Origin: Alphaproteobacteria bacterium
GTDB lineage: Bacteria; Pseudomonadota; Alphaproteobacteria; Reyranellales; Reyranellaceae
Direction of reading: 5' to 3'
DNA: 64,000 nt
NCBI GenBank assembly: GCA_947474005.1
Contig: CANJHI010000009.1
Coordinates: forward strand, 1-64,000
The notes below the pieces were generated by a model. It worked only from the letters and a program-made list of their open reading frames with translations. It did no database searches and was not told where the DNA came from. Below, piece after piece: positions 4,949 through 33,077 of this stretch. The position numbers were made by a program, and so were the translations under genes. Position 1 is the first letter of the stretch. Every line of letters starts with the position of its first letter.

Positions 4949-6232
4949 CTACTCGGCCGGCGCGACTTGAGGTACCGGAGCGCGCTCCTCGCGAACGCGG
5001 TCGCTGCCCGGCAGCAGCAGCGCCACCAGCGTGATCACGACCGAGGTGGCGGCGAGGCCGAGGAACAACAGGTCGAGGCTGCCCGTGCTCTCGCGCACCC
5101 AGGCGATGGCCAGGATGGCGAACGGGCTGGCGCCGAGCGACACGACGAACTTCGCACCGAAGCCGAGGCCGTGATAGCGGCTGGGCGTGTAGCGCGCGAT
5201 CAGGATGTTCTCGACCGGACCCGCGGCCGAGCTCAGCACGGCCGAGGCAATGGCGCCGGCGAGTGCCACGTAGCCGTTGCCCATGGCAAGCGCCAGCATG
5301 GCGCCGACCTGGAGCGCCGAGGCCACGACGTAGGTCGTCTTCAGCGGATAGCGATCGATGATGCGCCGGCCCATGGCGTATTGCGCGATGCCGGAGACGA
5401 TATAGATCGTCGAGGTCGCAAGCCCGACCCATAGCACCGCCTGCGTGACGACGCCCCACGATGCAAGGCCGTCGCGCAGCCAGGCGATCTGATCGCCGAG
5501 ACGCGACTGGAACACAAGCGCGGCGCCATACATCACTGCGGCCCAGGTGATGCCTTCCAGCGCCATGGTGACCGAGAGCACCGAGAAGACCCGCCAGAAG
5601 TTGCTGCGCCCGGACTCGATGCCGGGCGTCTCGGGCATCGGCCGGTCGCCGACTCGGCCGCGCCTGATCTCGACCAGGAGCACCGCGCCCACGGCGATGC
5701 AGACGATGCCCGGCACGATGAAGGCCGCGCGCCACGAGGCGAGCGTGATCAGCACCCCAGGCACGATGCCGTAGAGCGCGAGGCCCGCGCTGCCCCACAG
5801 GCCATTTACGCCCATGGCGTGGCCCTGCTCCTTGGCCGTGCGGATGACCCAGCCGATGCCGACCGAGTGATAGATGGCGCCGAACGCGCCGATACCGCAG
5901 AGCGCCAGCGACAGCGCAAAGGTATCGCCGGTCGGCACCAGGCCGCAGAGGATCGACGACAGGCCGAGGCCCACGAACATCACGACCATCATGGCGGGCG
6001 CGCCGAAGCGGTCCGACGCCCAGCCGGCAGGCAGCGACATGACGCCCAGCAGGACGCTGGCCGGGGCATAGAGGAGGAGCAGATCCTCGGCCGGCAGCTT
6101 CCAGGCGATGGCGAGCGTGAGCACGATCACCGCATAAAACGCCGTCATCAGGTGCATCAGCGCATGGCCGATCGAGGAAAACAGCAGGACGCGACGGCCC
6201 GAATCGAGAGAACTCATATCAGGGGAATTCAT
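4949..6232 (-). CDS. MFS transporter
   Basis: Multi-TM protein, [11 protein letters not shown] loop motif; start [14 protein letters not shown] favoured over the longer ORF, which would run close to the tRNA. Confidence 0.82.
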
Positions 6233-24092: not shown

Positions 24093-25205
24093 CTACTTCT
24101 TCATCGGGGACGACTTGCCGTCCTTCCAGACATAGATGTCGTAGACCGGGTTCTTGATGTCGCCCTTGGCGTCGAATTCGAGCACGCCGACAGCGGAGTC
24201 GTACTTGCCGGACCGCAGAGCCGTGGCAACTGCCACCGCGTCGGTCGACTTGGCCTTCTTGGCGGCGTCAGCCCACGCCTTGACCGCTGCGTAGCTGAAC
24301 AGCGTGTAGCCTTCCGGATTGTACTTGGCATCGCGGAATTTCTTCACGAGCGCCGCATTCTTCGGATCGTCCTCGGCCTTGGGCGGGAACGACATCAGCA
24401 CGCCGTTGGTGGCGGCGCCGCCCAGCTGGGCGAATTCGGCGGTTTCGAGTGCGTCGAAGCCCACCATGTTCGCAGCCAGGCCCTGTTCGCGCGACTGCTT
24501 GATGATCAACGCGCCAGCGGTGTGGTAGCCGCCGAGTACGATGATGTCGATCTTCGCCTGCTTCATCTTGTTGATGATCGCGGTGAAGTCCTTGTCGGTG
24601 TCGTTGTAGGCCTCGTACATCGTTTCCTTCAGGCCTCCCTTGTTGAGGGCCTTCTTGGTCTCGTCGGCCACGCCTTTGCCGTACGGCGACTTGTCGTGAA
24701 GGATCGCGACCTTGGCGGTCTTGTTGTTCTTCAGAATGTAGGCGCCGACGGTGGCACCCTGGACGTCGTCACGGCCGCAGGTGCGGAACACCGTTGTGTT
24801 GCCCTTGGCCACAGCGTCGTCGGTCAGCTTGGGATTGGTCGAAGCCGGCGTGATCTGCAGGATCTTGCCTTCCTTGTAGATGTCCGAAGCCGGGATCGAC
24901 GAGCCGGAGCAGAAGTGGCCGGCCACGAAGACGACCTTGTCCGAGACCATCTTGTTGGCGACCGCCGTCGCCTGCTTGGGATCGCAGGCATCGTCGCCGA
25001 TGACGAGCTGGAGCTTCTGGCCATTGACCCCGCCGGCGGCATTGATTTCCTCGACCGCCATTTCGGCGCCGCGCTTGAGCTGCTCGCCGAAGGCCGCGTA
25101 CTGGCCGGTCATCGGGCCGGCCGAACCGATCTTGATTTGCGCGAAAGCCGGCGTTGCCATCACGGCGAGGGCTGCGATGGCAAGCGGGCCGTAGAACTTC
25201 TTCAT
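24093..25205 (-). CDS. livK: Branched-chain amino acid ABC transporter substrate-binding protein (LivJ/LivK-like)
   Basis: Signal peptide; IKIGSAGPMTGQYAAFGEQLKRGAEMAVEEINAAGGVNGQKLQLVIGDDACDPKQA. Confidence 0.93.
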   Translation of the reverse strand: MKKFYGPLAIAALAVMATPAFAQIKIGSAGPMTGQYAAFGEQLKRGAEMAVEEINAAGGVNGQKLQLVIGDDACDPKQATAVANKMVSDKVVFVAGHFCSGSSIPASDIYKEGKILQITPASTNPKLTDDAVAKGNTTVFRTCGRDDVQGATVGAYILKNNKTAKVAILHDKSPYGKGVADETKKALNKGGLKETMYEAYNDTDKDFTAIINKMKQAKIDIIVLGGYHTAGALIIKQSREQGLAANMVGFDALETAEFAQLGGAATNGVLMSFPPKAEDDPKNAALVKKFRDAKYNPEGYTLFSYAAVKAWADAAKKAKSTDAVAVATALRSGKYDSAVGVLEFDAKGDIKNPVYDIYVWKDGKSSPMKK

Positions 25206-25256
25206 GCGCGTCTCCTTGGTTGACTCCCCCCACGGATGTGGAGTCTGGCCGACAGC

Positions 25257-25619
25257 TTAGTGCCGCTCCTCCCAGCCCAGCAAGCCTTTGCGACGGTAGA
25301 GCCAGGGATACTGCTGGACCATCTGGCGCGACCGCGTGAGGCGGTAGGCGAAAGCGCCGATCGACATTTGCACGGCCCAGCCCAGCAAGAATCCGGCCAC
25401 CGACCACAATTCTCCACCGCCCAGGGCGTAATCGAGAAAGCGCAGCGTGGCCGACAGCAGCGCCGTGTAGAACACCATCTGCCCCCAATGGCGCCAGGTA
25501 ATCGCCAGGCCCTGCCCGGCGGCAAAGGACGCGGGACCGACCAGCACGAGGTTCAGTAGCACGACGTTGAACAGCGTGTCGCCGAACCACTCGAACATGA
25601 AGGTGTCGATCGGGCTCAC
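25257..25619 (-). CDS. Small membrane protein of unknown function embedded in liv operon (DUF6867-like by recall)
   Basis: 120 aa, several hydrophobic stretches, stop/start overlap with livF; MSPIDTFMFEWFGDTLFNVVLLNLVLVGPASFAAGQGLA. Confidence 0.75.
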   Translation of the reverse strand: MSPIDTFMFEWFGDTLFNVVLLNLVLVGPASFAAGQGLAITWRHWGQMVFYTALLSATLRFLDYALGGGELWSVAGFLLGWAVQMSIGAFAYRLTRSRQMVQQYPWLYRRKGLLGWEERH

Positions 25620-26344
25620 GTCTGGCTGCCTTCGAGATAGGCGGCGCGGACTTCGGCGTTGGCCAGCAATTCGCGCCCCGTGCCGGTCATCCGCACCCGG
25701 CCGTTGACCAGGACGTAGCCACGGTCGGCGAGCCGCAATGCGTGAAAGGCGTTCTGCTCGACCAGGAAGATCGTGACGCCGTCATCGCGGGCGATGCGCC
25801 GGATCGACTCGAAGATCTGGCGGACGATCAGCGGTGCCAGCCCAAGCGACGGCTCGTCCAGCAGCAGCAACCGGGGCCGGCCCATCAGCGCGCGCCCGAT
25901 CGCCAGCATCTGTTGCTCGCCGCCGGACAGGGTGCCGCCGCGCTGCGTGCGCCGCTCAGCGAGCCGCGGGAACATCGTGAACACCCGCTCGAGGTCCTGC
26001 CGGAAGTGCGCGGGATCGGCGAGCGTGGCGCCCATCTGGAGATTCTCCAGTACGCTCATGCGCGGAAAGATACGGCGCCCCTCCGGAACCTGGGCCACGC
26101 CACGCCGCACGATTTCGTGGGTCGGCAGGCCTGCGATGTCCTCGCCGTCGAGCCGGATGGTCCCCGCCCGCGCCCGCGGGTTGCCGCAGATCGTCATCAG
26201 CAAAGTCGACTTGCCGGCACCGTTGGCGCCGATCAACGTCACGATCTCCCCCTTCGCGACGTCCAGATCGACGCCGTGCAACGCCTGAATCGCGCCGTAA
26301 TAGGTCGCCACGTCCTTGACCGAGAGCATCGGAGGCTCAGCCAT
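25616..26344 (-). CDS. livF: Branched-chain amino acid ABC transporter ATP-binding protein LivF
   Basis: Walker A GANGAGKST, signature LSGGEQQML, GAIQALHGVDLDVAKGEIV. Confidence 0.94.
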   Translation of the reverse strand: MAEPPMLSVKDVATYYGAIQALHGVDLDVAKGEIVTLIGANGAGKSTLLMTICGNPRARAGTIRLDGEDIAGLPTHEIVRRGVAQVPEGRRIFPRMSVLENLQMGATLADPAHFRQDLERVFTMFPRLAERRTQRGGTLSGGEQQMLAIGRALMGRPRLLLLDEPSLGLAPLIVRQIFESIRRIARDDGVTIFLVEQNAFHALRLADRGYVLVNGRVRMTGTGRELLANAEVRAAYLEGSQT

Positions 26345-27146
26345 CGAGCCCCTCCTCATCGGTGCCGAGATAGGCGCGGATCACCGCGGGGTTGCTCTGG
26401 ATCTCGGCCGGCGCGCCCTCGGCGATCTTGCGGCCGTAGTCGAGCACGACGATGTGGTTGGAGATGTTCATGACCACGCTCATGTCGTGCTCGATCAGCA
26501 GCACACCCGTACCGTCGACGTCCCGGATCGACACGAGAAGCTGGTTGAGCTCGGCCGATTCGCGCGGGTTGAGGCCGGCGGCCGGCTCATCGAGACATAG
26601 AAGCCTGGGCTCAGTGCACATGGCGCGGGCGATCTCGAGCCGGCGCTGCGCGCCGTAGGGAAGCTCGCCGGCCGGCCGGTCGGCATCGCCGAGCAGGTCG
26701 ATGCGCTCGAGCCAGGCGCGCGCCAGTCCGATGGCCGCCTCTTCCGCACGGGCAAAGCGACGCAAGCCCAGGAGGCCGTAGACGCTCCAGCCCGAGGCGC
26801 GCATCAGCTTGTTATGCTGGGCGACGAGGAGGTTCTCCAGCACGGTCATGCCGGAAAACAGGCGGATGTTCTGGAACGTCCGCGCCACTTTCGCGCGTTG
26901 GCCGATCTCGTGACCCAGCATGCGCTCCAGCAGATACTCGCGCTCGCCGCCGCTCAATGTGAGGCGGCCGATCGTCGGCTTGTAGAAACCGGTGATGCAA
27001 TTGAAGACGGTCGTCTTGCCGGCGCCGTTGGGACCGATGATGGCGGTGATCTCGCGCGACCGCGCGGCAAACGAGACATCGTCGACCGCCAGCAAACCGC
27101 CGAAGCGCATCGTCAGATGCTCGATCTCGATCAGCGGTTCGCTCAC
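26337..27146 (-). CDS. livG: Branched-chain amino acid ABC transporter ATP-binding protein LivG
   Basis: Walker A GPNGAGKTT, RTFQNIRLFSGMTVLENLLVAQH. Confidence 0.94.
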   Translation of the reverse strand: MSEPLIEIEHLTMRFGGLLAVDDVSFAARSREITAIIGPNGAGKTTVFNCITGFYKPTIGRLTLSGGEREYLLERMLGHEIGQRAKVARTFQNIRLFSGMTVLENLLVAQHNKLMRASGWSVYGLLGLRRFARAEEAAIGLARAWLERIDLLGDADRPAGELPYGAQRRLEIARAMCTEPRLLCLDEPAAGLNPRESAELNQLLVSIRDVDGTGVLLIEHDMSVVMNISNHIVVLDYGRKIAEGAPAEIQSNPAVIRAYLGTDEEGLDG

Positions 27147-28564
27147 GGACCGCCTCCCGAACCTGCGGGATGCAATCGCACGGACGGCTGGCGATCGGCG
27201 ATCAGGCCGCGTGGACGGAACACCATGATCAGCACCATAGCGAGGCCGAATGCCAGCATGCGGTAGTTGCCGAGGTCACGGAACCATTCCGGCAGTCCGA
27301 TGAGTAGCACTGCTGCCAGGACGACGCCGATCTGACTGCCCATCCCGCCCAGCACGACGATGGCAAGGATGATCGCCGATTCAATGAAGGCGAAGCTCTC
27401 CGGGCTGATGAAGCGTTGCTTGGCGGCGAAGAACGAGCCGGCGAAGCCCGCGAACATGGCGCCGATGGCGAAGGCCGTGAGCTTGGTGTTGGTCGGATTG
27501 ATGCCGAGCGCCCGGCAGGCGGTCTCGTCTTCGCGCAGCGCTTCCCAGGCACGGCCGACCGGCAGCCGCCGCATGCGCTGGGTGAACAGGTTGGTGATCA
27601 GCGCCAGCATCAGGATGATGTAATAGAGAAAGATAAGGCGATGGTTGCCGTCGAAGGTGATGCCCAGCATCTCTGACACGGTCTGCTTTCCGGCTGGCGG
27701 CGTTTCGGAAAACACCGCACCGAACAGCGTCGGCCCGGGGATGGAGCCGATCCCGGCCGGACCGTTGGTGAAATCGACCCAGTTCAGGAGCACCAGGCGG
27801 ATGATCTCGCCGAAACCCAGGGTGACGATCGCGAGGTAGTCGCCGCGCAGCCGCAAGACGGGAAAGCCCAGCACGATGCCGAACAGCGCGGCCATCATCC
27901 CGGCGAGCGGCAGCACGGTCCAGAACCCCAGGCCATGCTGCGTACTGAGCAGCGCATAGGAGTAGGCGCCCACGGCATAGAAGGCGACATAACCGAGGTC
28001 GAGCAAGCCGGCGAGGCCGACCACGATGTTGAGACCCCAACCCAGCATCACATAGGTCAGGATCAGCACCGCGAGATCCATTGTCTTCTGGTCGGCCGCC
28101 GGCGTGAACGGCAGGAGCACCGCGGCCACGAGCAACAGCCAGCCGAACCATTTCGTGCCGGCCTGGCCCAGGGCCAGGCCCGTGGGCGTCCCTGCCGCGG
28201 CCGTCATGGTGCCGCGCGCCCATGGCCAGATGCCGCGGATCACCAGCATCACGCCGCCCAACGCCACGAACCAATGCAGGAAGCCCGACGGCAGTTTCAG
28301 CTGCGAGGCCCCGACCCCGATCATCGCCACGCCCAGAGCCACGACCGGCCAACGCAAGCCTGCTGCCGTCAGGGATAGGCCGAGGCGACCGACGAAGATT
28401 GTGACGATCGCGACAGCAAGATCGGCGAATTGGTAGTCGAAGCTGAGGCCGGTGCGCGATCCGACGTCGACGGTCCGGAAACCGACGATGAAAATGCCAA
28501 GTGCCGCCGCAACGAAGGCCGTGAGGGCCGCGTCCTTCAACATCGAGGGGAAACGTACGCCCAT
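27143..28564 (-). CDS. livM: Branched-chain amino acid ABC transporter permease LivM (N-terminally extended)
   Basis: LNIVVGLAGLLDLGYVAFYAVGAYSYALL; GRAWEALREDETACRALGINPTNTKLTAFA. Confidence 0.93.
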   Translation of the reverse strand: MGVRFPSMLKDAALTAFVAAALGIFIVGFRTVDVGSRTGLSFDYQFADLAVAIVTIFVGRLGLSLTAAGLRWPVVALGVAMIGVGASQLKLPSGFLHWFVALGGVMLVIRGIWPWARGTMTAAAGTPTGLALGQAGTKWFGWLLLVAAVLLPFTPAADQKTMDLAVLILTYVMLGWGLNIVVGLAGLLDLGYVAFYAVGAYSYALLSTQHGLGFWTVLPLAGMMAALFGIVLGFPVLRLRGDYLAIVTLGFGEIIRLVLLNWVDFTNGPAGIGSIPGPTLFGAVFSETPPAGKQTVSEMLGITFDGNHRLIFLYYIILMLALITNLFTQRMRRLPVGRAWEALREDETACRALGINPTNTKLTAFAIGAMFAGFAGSFFAAKQRFISPESFAFIESAIILAIVVLGGMGSQIGVVLAAVLLIGLPEWFRDLGNYRMLAFGLAMVLIMVFRPRGLIADRQPSVRLHPAGSGGGP

Positions 28565-28568
28565 TTCG

Positions 28569-29483
28569 TCAGACCTTCTCGATCTCCGGCTTGCCGAGCA
28601 ACCCGGTTGGCCGGAAGATCAGGACGAGGACGAGAATGGCGAAGACGGCAACGTCCTTGTATTCGCTCGAGAAGTAGCCCGCCCAGAACACCTCGATCAG
28701 GCCGATCATCAGGCCGCCCAGCATTGCCCCCGGCAGAGAGCCGATGCCGCCGAGCACGGCCGCGGTGAAGGCTTTTATGCCGGCCAGGAAACCGATGTAG
28801 AAGTCGATGACGCCATAATACATCAGGAACAACATGCCGGCGACGGCGGCCAGCGCCGCTCCCAGAACGAAGGTGAGCGAGATGGTGCGATCGACATTGA
28901 CGCCCAGCAACGCCGCCATCTTCATGTCCTGCTCGCAGGCACGCTGCTGGCGGCCGAGAGACGTCCGCGCGATCAGCCAGGTGAAGCCCGCCATCAGAAC
29001 GACGGTCACCACCACGATGATGATCTGCAGCCAACTGACACGAACGTCGAAGCCGTCGGCGCTGAACAGGTTGAAGCCTCCCGAGACGATCTGGCCGCCG
29101 GGTTTGGGCCGCGCGCCCTGCACGAGTTGCACGTAGTTTTGGAGCGCGATCGACACGCCGATGGCGGAAATCAGCGGCGCCAGACGGAACGATCCCCGCA
29201 GGGGCCGATAGGCTGCCCGCTCGACCGCCCAGCCATAGACGGCGGAAAAGGCCATCGCCATCAACAATACCAGCAGGATCGCCACGGGGGCGGAACCGAT
29301 ACCGAGAAAGCTGCAGATCATGAATCCGATCAACGAGATGAACGCGCCGATCATGAAGACTTCGCCGTGGGCGAAATTGATCATGCCGATTATGCCGTAG
29401 ACCATCGTGTAGCCGATGGCGATCAGGCCGTAGATGGCTCCCAGCGTGATGGCGTTGATCAGCTGCTGCGAAAAATACGCCAT
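28569..29483 (-). CDS. livH: Branched-chain amino acid ABC transporter permease LivH
   Basis: NAITLGAIYGLIAIGYTMVYGIIGMINFAHGEVFMIGAF. Confidence 0.95.
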   Translation of the reverse strand: MAYFSQQLINAITLGAIYGLIAIGYTMVYGIIGMINFAHGEVFMIGAFISLIGFMICSFLGIGSAPVAILLVLLMAMAFSAVYGWAVERAAYRPLRGSFRLAPLISAIGVSIALQNYVQLVQGARPKPGGQIVSGGFNLFSADGFDVRVSWLQIIIVVVTVVLMAGFTWLIARTSLGRQQRACEQDMKMAALLGVNVDRTISLTFVLGAALAAVAGMLFLMYYGVIDFYIGFLAGIKAFTAAVLGGIGSLPGAMLGGLMIGLIEVFWAGYFSSEYKDVAVFAILVLVLIFRPTGLLGKPEIEKV

Positions 29484-29671: not shown

Positions 29672-30547
29672 ATGGATAATCCTTCTTATGACCTCATCGT
29701 CGTCGGCTCCGGGCCGGCCGGCCTCACCGCCGCCACCGAAGCCGCCCGCGCCGGCCTCAAGTGCCTGTGTCTCGACAAGCTCGCCCCGGGCGGCGTGCTG
29801 ATCAACCTGAACGAACTACACGACTTCGACGAGATCTTCACCGGCACCCAGATGGCGTCGCAGTTGACCGACGATGCTGTTGTTGCCGGCGTCGAAATCG
29901 GCTTCGGCGAGGTGGTGAACCTTTCCGGAAACGGTCCGTGGACGGTCGAGACCGCGGACGGCGAACACCACACCGCCCGCGCCGTGGTGATCGCCACCGG
30001 GCTCAACAAGGGCCGGCTCGGTCTTCCGAACGAAGACGAGTACGAAGGCCGTGGCCTCTCCCACTGCGCCGCTTGTGACGGGCCGCTCTATACCGGCCTC
30101 CCCGTCATTGTGGCCGGCGCCGAGGGCTGGGCCGCTCTCGAGGCCAAGGAACTGACCGGTTTGGCGGCCAAGGTCACCGTGGTCGGCACGCCACCCGCGG
30201 AGAAGCCCGAAGGCGTCACCTTCATCGACGGTCGCATCGTCGGCCTGGACGGCAACGACGGCCTGCAGTCCGTCACCATCGAAGCCGATGCAACGCGGAA
30301 CACCATTCCGGCCAGCGCGGTGTTCGTCTATGTCGGCCAATCTCCCGCTGCGGAATTCCTGCCGGAATCGCTTGCACGCGACGCTTCAGGGCATATCGTA
30401 GTGGATGCGGACGGTCGCACGTCGATGCCGACGATCTTTGCGGTAGGCGATGTGCGGGCCGGCGGACGCGAATACCTGGCAGATGCCATTGCCGACGGCC
30501 ACCGCGCGGCTATGGCGATCGGCGCGACGCTGGGTAAAACGAGTTGA
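29672..30547 (+). CDS. Thioredoxin reductase-like FAD-dependent oxidoreductase
   Basis: FAD motif IVVGSGPAGLTAATEAARAG; redox motif HCAACDGPLY; GDV FAD motif AVGDVRAGG; NADPH motif degenerate (VAGAEGWAALEA). Confidence 0.88.
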   Translation: MDNPSYDLIVVGSGPAGLTAATEAARAGLKCLCLDKLAPGGVLINLNELHDFDEIFTGTQMASQLTDDAVVAGVEIGFGEVVNLSGNGPWTVETADGEHHTARAVVIATGLNKGRLGLPNEDEYEGRGLSHCAACDGPLYTGLPVIVAGAEGWAALEAKELTGLAAKVTVVGTPPAEKPEGVTFIDGRIVGLDGNDGLQSVTIEADATRNTIPASAVFVYVGQSPAAEFLPESLARDASGHIVVDADGRTSMPTIFAVGDVRAGGREYLADAIADGHRAAMAIGATLGKTS

Positions 30548-30559
30548 AGAGGAGTGATC

Positions 30560-31078
30560 ATGCTTATCGTCAATCCGACTTTTGGTCTCGCGGCGGCCGC
30601 GGGCCCCACGGTGGCGCTGAAGCCGATCAACTGGGCGACCGACGCGATCGCGCTCATGTCGAACTCCAAGCCGAATGCGCGCGAGCTGCTCGAGGGCGTG
30701 AAGGCCAAGCTCGGCGCCTTCCGCAACGTCGACAACATCGAGTTCCACGCCAAGAACAGCGCCAGCCAGGCCGCCCCCAAGGAACTGATCCAGGCGGTCG
30801 CCGGGAAGTATCGCGCGGCGCTCCTTGCGTTAGGGGATTGAGGGTCCTGTTCATCGTGGAGTTTCCACGACAGCATCGAACTCGAGAAACTCGGCATCAC
30901 GGCCTACGTGATCGCCACTGAGACCTTCAAGCCGCTCGTGCTTGCCCAGGCCAAAGCCCGCAAGATTGAGCCCAAGCTTATCGTCGTGAAGCACCCGGTG
31001 GGTGGCCTCAACGCCGAGGAGCTGCGCGAGCGCATCGAAACCGCGACCCAAGGCCTTCTCGAGGCGACGAAGAAATGA
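30560..31078 (+). CDS. Putative UGSC-motif selenoprotein (in-frame TGA at 30839-30841 read as selenocysteine, residue 94 of 172)
   Basis: Reading through TGA gives ...AALLALGD-U-GSCSSWSFHDSIELEKLGITAYVIATETFKPLVLAQAKARKIEPKLIVVKHPVGGLNAEELRERIETATQGLLEATKK; same frame both sides, RBS-like AGAGGAG upstream, stop overlaps next ATG, SECIS-like hairpin after TGA. Confidence 0.88.
30839..30873 (+). promoter_or_regulatory. Bacterial SECIS-like element (Sec UGA plus downstream hairpin)
   Basis: TGA followed 18 nt later by apical loop AGTTT closed by perfect 6-bp stem TCGTGG(30854-30859)/CCACGA(30865-30870); possible lower CTG/CAG helix; G at second loop position. Confidence 0.8.
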
Positions 31079-32109
31079 CGGATATCGCCGAACAGGAAGT
31101 CATCGACATCGGCGATATGGATGTCGAGACGTTCAACGAGTTCGCCACGCAGCAGGGCTGGAGCGACGGCATGCCGCTCTTCGTGCCGACCGAAGCGAAG
31201 GTGGCGAAGTTCGTCGAGACGGTGCGCGGCGACAATCGGCCCTACTCGCCCGTACCGCCGCGCCAGATCGTGCCGACCATCCAGGCGATGGCCGCCAACG
31301 CCGTGATGGCGGGCTGCAAGCCGGAATACTTCCCCGTGGTGACGGCAGCGATGCGCAGCGTGCTCGAGCCCGACTTCAATCTGCACGGCACCCTCGCCAC
31401 GACGCACTCCTGCGCGCCGATGGTCATGATCAGCGGACCGATCCGCAAGGAGCTCAACGTCAACTGCTCCTCCAACTGCTTCGGCCAGGGCTGGCAGGCC
31501 AACGCTACGATCGGCCGCGCGCTCGGCTTGATGCTGCTCAACATCGCCGGCGCCAAGCCCGGCGAGATGGATCGCTCGACCCAGGGCAATCCCGCCAAGT
31601 TCACCTTCTGCTTCGGCGAGAACGAGGAAGAGAACCCCTGGACGCCCTACCATGTGCAGCGCGGCTTCAAGCCGACAGACAACGTGGTGACGGTGATGTC
31701 GGGTGAAGGCCCGCACAACCTCAACGACCACGGCTCGACCACGGGCGACGGCCTGCTGACGACCTTCGCCGGCGGCATGGCGACGCCGGGCGCCAACACG
31801 GTGTACGGCAAGGGCCCGAGCTTCATCATCATCGGCCCCGAGCACGCCGCGACGCTCAAGCGCGACGGCTTCACCATCGAAACCATCCGCGAGGAGTTGT
31901 GGCAACGCTCGCGCATACACATCTCGCGCGTCTCCAAGGGGAACCTCGATACCTACGCCAGCACCGGCCACGAACCGGAAGGCGACTACCTGCGCATCGG
32001 CCGTTCGCCGCAGGACTTGCACATCACCGTGGCGGGCGGTCCGGGCAAGCACTCGGCCTTCATCCCGTCGTTCGGCGGCACCATGGTCGCCTGCACGCGC
32101 ATCCAATGA
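31075..32109 (+). CDS. UGSC-operon protein A, unknown function
   Basis: 344 aa; start ATG overlaps UGSC stop (ATGA); paralogous to next gene; motifs AGCKPEYFPVV, LEPDFNLHG, NCFGQGWQANATIGRALGL, TFCFGENEE. Confidence 0.85.
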   Translation: MTDIAEQEVIDIGDMDVETFNEFATQQGWSDGMPLFVPTEAKVAKFVETVRGDNRPYSPVPPRQIVPTIQAMAANAVMAGCKPEYFPVVTAAMRSVLEPDFNLHGTLATTHSCAPMVMISGPIRKELNVNCSSNCFGQGWQANATIGRALGLMLLNIAGAKPGEMDRSTQGNPAKFTFCFGENEEENPWTPYHVQRGFKPTDNVVTVMSGEGPHNLNDHGSTTGDGLLTTFAGGMATPGANTVYGKGPSFIIIGPEHAATLKRDGFTIETIREELWQRSRIHISRVSKGNLDTYASTGHEPEGDYLRIGRSPQDLHITVAGGPGKHSAFIPSFGGTMVACTRIQ

Positions 32110-33077
32110 CCGAGTGGTGCGGCTGGCCCGTCGTAGCTGAGTCGACGGGCTGGGAGGCCGCGCAACAGATCCTGACCGACGCCGAATTGTCGGACGGCCT
32201 GCCGCTCGTGCCGCCGACGCAGAAGCGCCTCGACGCCATGGCCGCCGGCCTCGCAGATGGCACCGAATCGCGTGGCGCCATGCCGCCGATGTTCGGCGAC
32301 ATCACGCCCGAAGCGATCGCCTACCAATGTGTGATTGCCGGCTGCCGGCCGGCCGAACTGCCGGTGGTGATGGCCGCGGCCGAAGCAACGCTGGAGCCTG
32401 ACTTCAACCTGCTGGGGATCGCGACCACGACAGGCACGGCCTGCGTGGCGCTCTGCGTCCATGGCCCGCTCGCCCGCACGCTCGGCATCAATGCCGGCAC
32501 CAACTGCCTCGGCCCCGGCAACCGCGCCAACGCCAGCATCGGCCGCGCGCTGCAACTCGTGATCCGCAACATCGGCGGCGCCCGCTCGGACGTCGGCGAC
32601 ATGGCGACCATGGGCCAGCCCGGCAAGTACACCTTCTGCTTCGCCGAACGGAACGATGGGCCCTTCCCGACGCTGACCGCGCGGCGCGGCCTCGGCGGCG
32701 ACGCCAGCGCTTTCACGGTGATGGGTATTTCCGGCACCGCCGAGGTGTTGCCGGGCGACGGCGAGGGAGCGACGCCCGAGGCCATCCTCTCCCCCATCGC
32801 GACGGCGATGCGGGCCGCCATCGTCATGTCCGGCATGGGCCGCAAGAACGAGCGCGGCGAGCAGGTTTTCCTGCTGCCACTCGAGATGGCAGAGAAGATC
32901 GTCCGGCACGATGGCTGGGATTTGGCGCGCGTACAGCGCTATCTGTTCGACGAAGGCCAGGGCGTGGCCAGCGCACCCGACGCCATCCATCCCATCGTGA
33001 CCGGCGGCGCCGGATACAAGATGAGCTACCTGCCGATCTGGGGCGGCGGCTCGCAGACGGTGACGCGGGCTCTCTAG
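32106..33077 (+). CDS. UGSC-operon protein B, unknown function, paralogue of protein A
   Basis: ATGA overlap with preceding stop; motifs AGCRPAELPVV, LEPDFNLLG, NCLGPGNRANASIGRALQL, TFCFAERND. Confidence 0.85.
   Translation: MTEWCGWPVVAESTGWEAAQQILTDAELSDGLPLVPPTQKRLDAMAAGLADGTESRGAMPPMFGDITPEAIAYQCVIAGCRPAELPVVMAAAEATLEPDFNLLGIATTTGTACVALCVHGPLARTLGINAGTNCLGPGNRANASIGRALQLVIRNIGGARSDVGDMATMGQPGKYTFCFAERNDGPFPTLTARRGLGGDASAFTVMGISGTAEVLPGDGEGATPEAILSPIATAMRAAIVMSGMGRKNERGEQVFLLPLEMAEKIVRHDGWDLARVQRYLFDEGQGVASAPDAIHPIVTGGAGYKMSYLPIWGGGSQTVTRAL

Follow-up and report, generated by a model that had tools for sequence, protein, structure and literature searches.

The frame at positions 30560-31078 of the window, the whole stretch of 64,000 nucleotides analysed here, encodes with near certainty a selenoprotein of the UGSC family, its UGA at 30839-30841 being recoded by SelA, SelB, tRNA-Sec and SelD together with a hairpin at 30854-30870. 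The conserved unit is the operon and not the UGSC gene alone (Table 1). The explanation that accounts best for the whole, to which we give a probability of about 60%, is a selenoprotein working in a multi-component reductase that is fed by thioredoxin. An unlikely alternative is that UGSC, though a true selenoprotein, serves the thioredoxin network more generally, as an oxidoreductase for thiols or peroxides or for protein repair, and not as the catalytic subunit of one substrate-specific reductase.

UGSC is a predicted selenoprotein family to which the accessible text of earlier work (PMC2398784, PMC9312934, PMC13188914) and the family entry NF041046 assign no function, and a 2026 review groups it with families of largely uncharacterised function. 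According to the accessible part of the GOS survey of 2008, a UGSC-containing protein is abundant in aquatic bacteria (PMC2398784), and the family ranks among the most abundant in aquatic metagenomes. The original prediction named UGSC as an annotated (seleno)protein family of unassigned function, which agrees with the entries PF24696 and NF041046.

Table 1. Features of the operon, with positions in the window
Feature	Position	Strand	Basis or remark
Thioredoxin-reductase-like flavoprotein, CAAC redox motif, first operon gene	29672..30547	+	Pyr_redox_2, TRX_reduct, CxxCDG in homologues
Shine-Dalgarno AGGAG of UGSC gene	30550..30554	+	sequence
UGSC selenoprotein gene	30560..31078	+	172 residues, Sec at residue 94; Pfam PF24696, NCBIfam NF041046
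UGA codon read as selenocysteine (U of UGSC)	30839..30841	+	TGA in 100/100 homologues checked; Cys in genomes without selB
SECIS hairpin UCGUGGA-GUU-UCCACGA	30854..30870	+	fold energy, frozen synonymous codons, compensatory pair
Orphan partner p2 (344 aa), ATGA overlap with UGSC	31075..32109	+	no Pfam/NCBIfam match; adjoins UGSC
Orphan partner paralogue p3 (323 aa), ATGA overlap with p2	32106..33077	+	about 30% identical to p2

The in-frame TGA and its decoding

The sequence confirms the predicted read-through of 78 codons with a terminal TGA lying over the next ATG: the frame that opens at ATG 30560 runs through the first TGA to a second one at 31076-31078, which overlaps the ATG at 31075, and the product reads ...LALGD-U-GSCSSWSFHD... 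around residue 94. The open frame past the TGA is weak evidence when taken alone because 78 open codons are common in this GC-rich window. At the given base composition the chance of such a run is about 15%, and among frames of the window that come after a long open one, 33% have at least 78 codons. The GC content by codon position is still gene-like after the TGA (0.60/0.41/0.81 vs 0.63/0.45/0.88 before it). The frame is more than chance because homology spans the TGA and because the identical TGA is found at the residue-94 position in all 100 UGSC genes that were checked codon by codon. In profile searches with the read-through protein, Pfam UGSC (PF24696) covers residues 3-168 (E=1e-35, 123.8 bits against a cut-off of 25), and the NCBIfam equivalog NF041046 covers residues 29-168 with 117.6 bits, just under its cut-off of 125. 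The (U/C)-G-S-C motif is here U94-G95-S96-C97, and D93, position 94, G95, C97 and D104 are invariant in 35 aligned members.

The window's own genome (G000), a Reyranella-type alphaproteobacterium of 93.8% completeness in 316 contigs, has the whole set of decoding genes, each above its cut-off: tRNA-Sec or selC (C176:9586-9677, 71.4 bits), selB (C176:7634-9481, 455.1 bits), selA (C176:5382-6698, 571.6 bits) and selD (C33:9783-10700, 303.3 bits). The selD match sits within an open frame of 748 aa, consistent with a fusion of the Ndh-SelD type. Three UGSC genes with one in-frame TGA apiece are present in this genome. Across the order, UGSC was found in 75 of 76 genomes, mostly in 2-6 copies each, with one TGA in every UGSC match among the matches listed for the 75 genomes. 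Three genomes of the order with a TGA-containing UGSC gene (G017, G033 and G043) gave no full selB match, and these are probably assembly gaps; two of the three are less than 90% complete and G043 is fragmented.

A sample spread over the phylum had UGSC above cut-off in 7 of 398 genomes; a weak match in G441 was FtsZ and was rejected as a false positive. The state of the site tracks the presence of selB in all seven: four genomes (G000, G053, G331, G471) have Sec and a selB above cut-off, and three (G395, G211, G299) have Cys and no selB above cut-off, with TGC at the Sec site of the loci L150, L155 and L154. The last of these (G299:C6:12789-13246) also has a TGA where a relative has tryptophan. 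Since this TGA falls elsewhere than at the active site, the copy is probably broken or the product of an assembly error.

The hairpin downstream of the UGA has a GUU loop, a stem of 7 bp, a spacing of 19 nt from the UGA to the start of the loop and a folding energy of -8.4 kcal/mol for the 17-nt core (-14.4 kcal/mol for 47 nt). This places it inside all four constraints of the published bacterial SECIS model, namely a loop of 3-9 nt with an early G, a stem of 4-16 bp, a spacing of 16-37 nt and an energy of -7.5 kcal/mol or lower (PMC13188914). The codons TCG-TGG-AGT-TTC-(CAC)-GAC are frozen in 87 distinct orthologues, the two serines being 100% TCG and 100% AGT. Control codons elsewhere in the gene, where the amino acid is conserved and has at least 4 synonyms, were on average 63% conserved and in no case as much as 97%. 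Among the paralogues the GU of the loop is invariant and one stem pair is compensated, from G-C to C-G through simultaneous changes of Trp to Cys and Phe to Leu. Altogether 98% of the stem cells are paired; in 500 shuffles neither this share nor the covariation score was reached. In folding energy the region did not fall below synonymous recodings of it (mean z -0.44 vs -0.23 in control windows, p=0.18). This test is without signal because the amino acids fix much of the stem, and the case for the SECIS therefore rests on conservation and form.

A real stop at the TGA, leaving a product of 93-95 aa or a pseudogene, would agree with the standard code and with gene callers, which end the gene there. 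The truncation by standard callers had been foreseen in the original prediction, and on the Paracoccus ferrooxidans plasmid pFER4 (L220, 8387-8956) the public record splits a relative, located between selA and selB, into two adjacent hypothetical proteins. This reading is already refuted because homology continues past the TGA: the residues after it are the most conserved part of the protein, and Cys takes its place where selB is missing, so that a real stop is highly improbable. Ordinary suppression of the UGA, with insertion of Trp, Cys or Arg, is just as improbable; nothing in the analysis of this genome and the homologues spoke for it, and the four Sec genes, a SECIS at the right distance and the exchange of Sec for Cys speak against it. 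Least probable of all is a sequencing error for TGC or TGT, which the existence of Cys homologues would suit, because about 100 separate assemblies, single-contig genomes among them, show the same TGA. The hidden selenoprotein gene that was originally predicted is hence well supported: its relatives align along their full length and have either Sec or Cys in place of residue 94, selA, selB, selC and selD are all in the genome, and every test named to refute it was run without doing so.

The operon, its orphan partners and the thioredoxin system

The flavoprotein that opens the operon matches Pfam Pyr_redox_2 (1.8e-28) and NCBIfam TRX_reduct (TIGR01292, 2.1e-56). With 191 bits against a cut-off of 343 for the latter it is a divergent and probably dedicated reductase; it has the CxxC of thioredoxin reductase, and the motif CxxCDG is found in 65 of 71 homologues. 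Profile searches gave no Pfam or NCBIfam family for p2 or p3, and members of the p2 family are named 'hypothetical protein' in public plasmid annotation. The tie between p2 and UGSC is invariant. A p2-family gene adjoins UGSC in 97 of 100 loci, the three exceptions (L120, L147 and L148) being cut by contig ends; each of the three UGSC genes in the window's own genome adjoins one, and of the 398 genomes the seven with UGSC are precisely the seven with p2.

The invariant residues of p2 are Asp31, Thr110, Asn134, Arg148, Asn156, Asp166, Thr169, Lys175 and Glu182 besides glycines and prolines, and no Cys is invariant among the aligned members. With many polar invariants and no Cys among them, p2 would suit a subunit that binds or activates the substrate while UGSC bears the redox residues. 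The substrate-binding role is a guess, p2 having no confident structural match: its model (pLDDT 88.5) found no PDB entry at E<=0.001 with Foldseek. Weak matches to fumarase, cyanuric acid hydrolase/barbiturase, chorismatase and YjgF-like proteins were not used. A fusion of UGSC with 'Unknown_1' appears in the accessible text of the 2008 GOS paper (PMC2398784), and 'Unknown_1' may be the same partner.

Genes of the thioredoxin system recur around the pair. The gene order is trxB-trxA-p2-UGSC in Arthrobacter and p2-UGSC-trxB in Roseovarius, and in Variovorax trxB lies upstream of SDR-p2-UGSC. In haloarchaea the order is UGSC-p2, in Paracoccus ferrooxidans UGSC-p2 stands between selA and selB, and two of the three UGSC copies in the window's own genome have no adjoining trxR. 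One class of paralogues carries a p2 with an N-terminal CxxC domain (e.g. RDCPTCV, QGCETCQ) that resembles thioredoxin (PF00085; E=0.001, below the cut-off). The UGSC/p2 pair looks like a selenium-dependent reductase because of its always adjacent partner and frequent thioredoxin-system neighbours. In Arthrobacter ERGS1:01 (L216, 10015-10830) UGSC has a C-terminal extension with a weak NifU-domain match (E=4e-6, borderline to the cut-off).

The wider surroundings are catabolic but varied, which makes it probable that the substrate differs from one paralogue to another. A molybdenum hydroxylase, an amidohydrolase, an RraA-like protein and luciferase-like enzymes are encoded near the copy on C89; the one on C6 has a LysR regulator and a CoA-transferase as neighbours. 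SDRs, CoA-transferases and phosphosulfolactate-synthase-like and PEP-mutase-like proteins are found beside UGSC in other genomes, and in 20 distant UGSC loci the catabolic neighbours were mixed, with no single substrate discernible. On C89 (L052, 836-9506) a second UGSC/p2 pair of this genome comes last in what looks like an operon, after genes for molybdenum hydroxylase, Amidohydro_3, RraA-like, luciferase-like and HD-domain proteins, whose content suggests catabolism of a nitrogenous compound. In the window, a complete Liv-type ABC transporter for branched-chain amino acids lies on the minus strand (24093-29483), divergent from the TrxR-UGSC-p2-p3 operon, and it adjoins the operon throughout most of the Reyranella lineage. 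The transporter and the amidase/amidohydrolase neighbours were set aside as parts of the system, their conservation being confined to this lineage.

Predicted fold and possible kinship

The AlphaFold2 model of UGSC, made with 35 sequences (pLDDT 88.6), has the order E-H-E-H-E-[UGSC]-H-E-H-E-H, and U94 is located between strand 3 (86-92) and helix 3 (95-110). The protein is thus predicted to be a small Rossmann-like domain with a five-stranded sheet. The thioredoxin fold has the order beta-alpha-beta-alpha-beta-beta-alpha with CxxC after the first strand, which differs from the model, and no thioredoxin is among the PDB matches listed for it, these being generic and weak. Sequence searches of the PDB with the UGSC, p2 and PrdB-like profiles gave zero matches. 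Of the proposed CxxC-like redox motif, the motif itself stands, and it is now placed in a predicted fold other than that of thioredoxin.

These results bear on the general oxidoreductase. The UxxC motif and the linkage to thioredoxin fit such an enzyme, and a Trx-like fold was assumed for UGSC in the 2008 GOS paper, as far as its accessible text goes (PMC2398784). However, the predicted Rossmann-like sheet and its top PDB matches point away from thioredoxins, and an obligate partner with many invariant polar residues and without an invariant Cys is not what a general oxidoreductase would lead one to expect. The same holds for the catabolic neighbourhoods and for the presence in one genome of several paralogues that are each paired with a separate p2.

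Selenoproteins resembling PrdB/GrdB, with the pattern DAALLVPV-U-PxC-TRAV, occur in Alphaproteobacteria including the window's own genome, where they form a second selenoprotein family: a protein of about 400 aa on contig C141, outside the window (L175, about 5635-5847, minus strand), has an in-frame TGA in DAALLVPV-U-PACTRAV. Among the alphaproteobacterial genomes sampled, about 30 others have a protein of this kind, and in nearly all of them it contains the TGA. With hhalign, UGSC and the PrdB-like profile align Sec to Sec with a score of 28.8 (E 0.0016); the maximum in 100 column-shuffled profiles was 20.3, the reversed profile gave 15.6, and UGSC scored 15.9 against TrxR and 18.2 against p2. 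The helix after Sec, a G-I-P strand and an (H/R)P-x-G loop are likewise aligned. In both proteins Sec lies where a strand gives way to a helix, and xxC, the helix and a G-(I/L)-(P/A)-x strand come after it. Because the hhalign probability is 16%, the kinship of UGSC to the Sec domain of PrdB/GrdB is suggestive and does not amount to membership, and PF07355 (GrdB/PrdB) is absent from the Pfam matches at E<=1 of 35 UGSC members. The systems differ in their partners: p2 is not the pyruvoyl-type GrdE/PrdA, p2 and p3 have neither a Pfam match nor an invariant Cys, and unlike glycine reductase the UGSC locus is without GrdA, GrdC and GrdD. The grd operons cluster with genes of the thioredoxin system.

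A putative thioredoxin-fed reductase

Read most simply, the system would be a reductase of small molecules. UGSC, translationally coupled to p2 and p3, very probably works with them as the subunit responsible for redox catalysis in an enzyme of several components, and we infer that the proteins form a physical complex. NAD(P)H would supply the electrons, which the TrxR-like flavoprotein and then thioredoxin would hand on to the Sec94/Cys97 pair, and the substrate, a small carboxylic or nitrogenous compound, would be bound and activated by p2/p3. The Sec selenolate might then attack this bound substrate, with a bond being cleaved or reduced as in D-proline and glycine reductase, and the resulting selenenylsulphide between Sec94 and Cys97 would be reduced again by thioredoxin and the upstream flavoprotein. 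The scheme as a whole has slightly better than even odds. Computation has shown the Sec codon, the SECIS, the decoding genes, the family, the invariant partner and the link to thioredoxin; the complex, the catalytic role, the path of the electrons and the class of substrate are inferred from these.

UGSC as studied here corresponds to the family of the GOS survey (PF24696/NF041046) in its full-length match, in the U-G-S-C motif and in having Sec with Cys homologues. In contrast to the accessible GOS literature, where partner and function are not given and a Trx-like fold is assumed, the present analysis adds an orphan partner, thioredoxin genes and a Rossmann-like prediction. In the open-access literature searched there was no mention of the strict pairing with an orphan protein, of the repeated linkage to thioredoxin genes or of a fold other than thioredoxin. 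It is tentatively proposed, at slightly less than even odds, that UGSC and p2 make up a previously undescribed class of thioredoxin-fed reductases dependent on selenium (or cysteine) in Alpha- and Betaproteobacteria, Actinomycetota and haloarchaea. This class would be akin to proline and glycine reductase but serve ordinary catabolism, with a p2 fold unmatched in the PDB and each paralogous pair having its own substrate.

UGSC genes that annotation has split can be found by a frame interrupted by TGA upstream or downstream of p2. The tie between UGSC and p2 and the wiring to thioredoxin reductase turn a family without an assigned function into a defined multi-gene system that is open to purification and assay.
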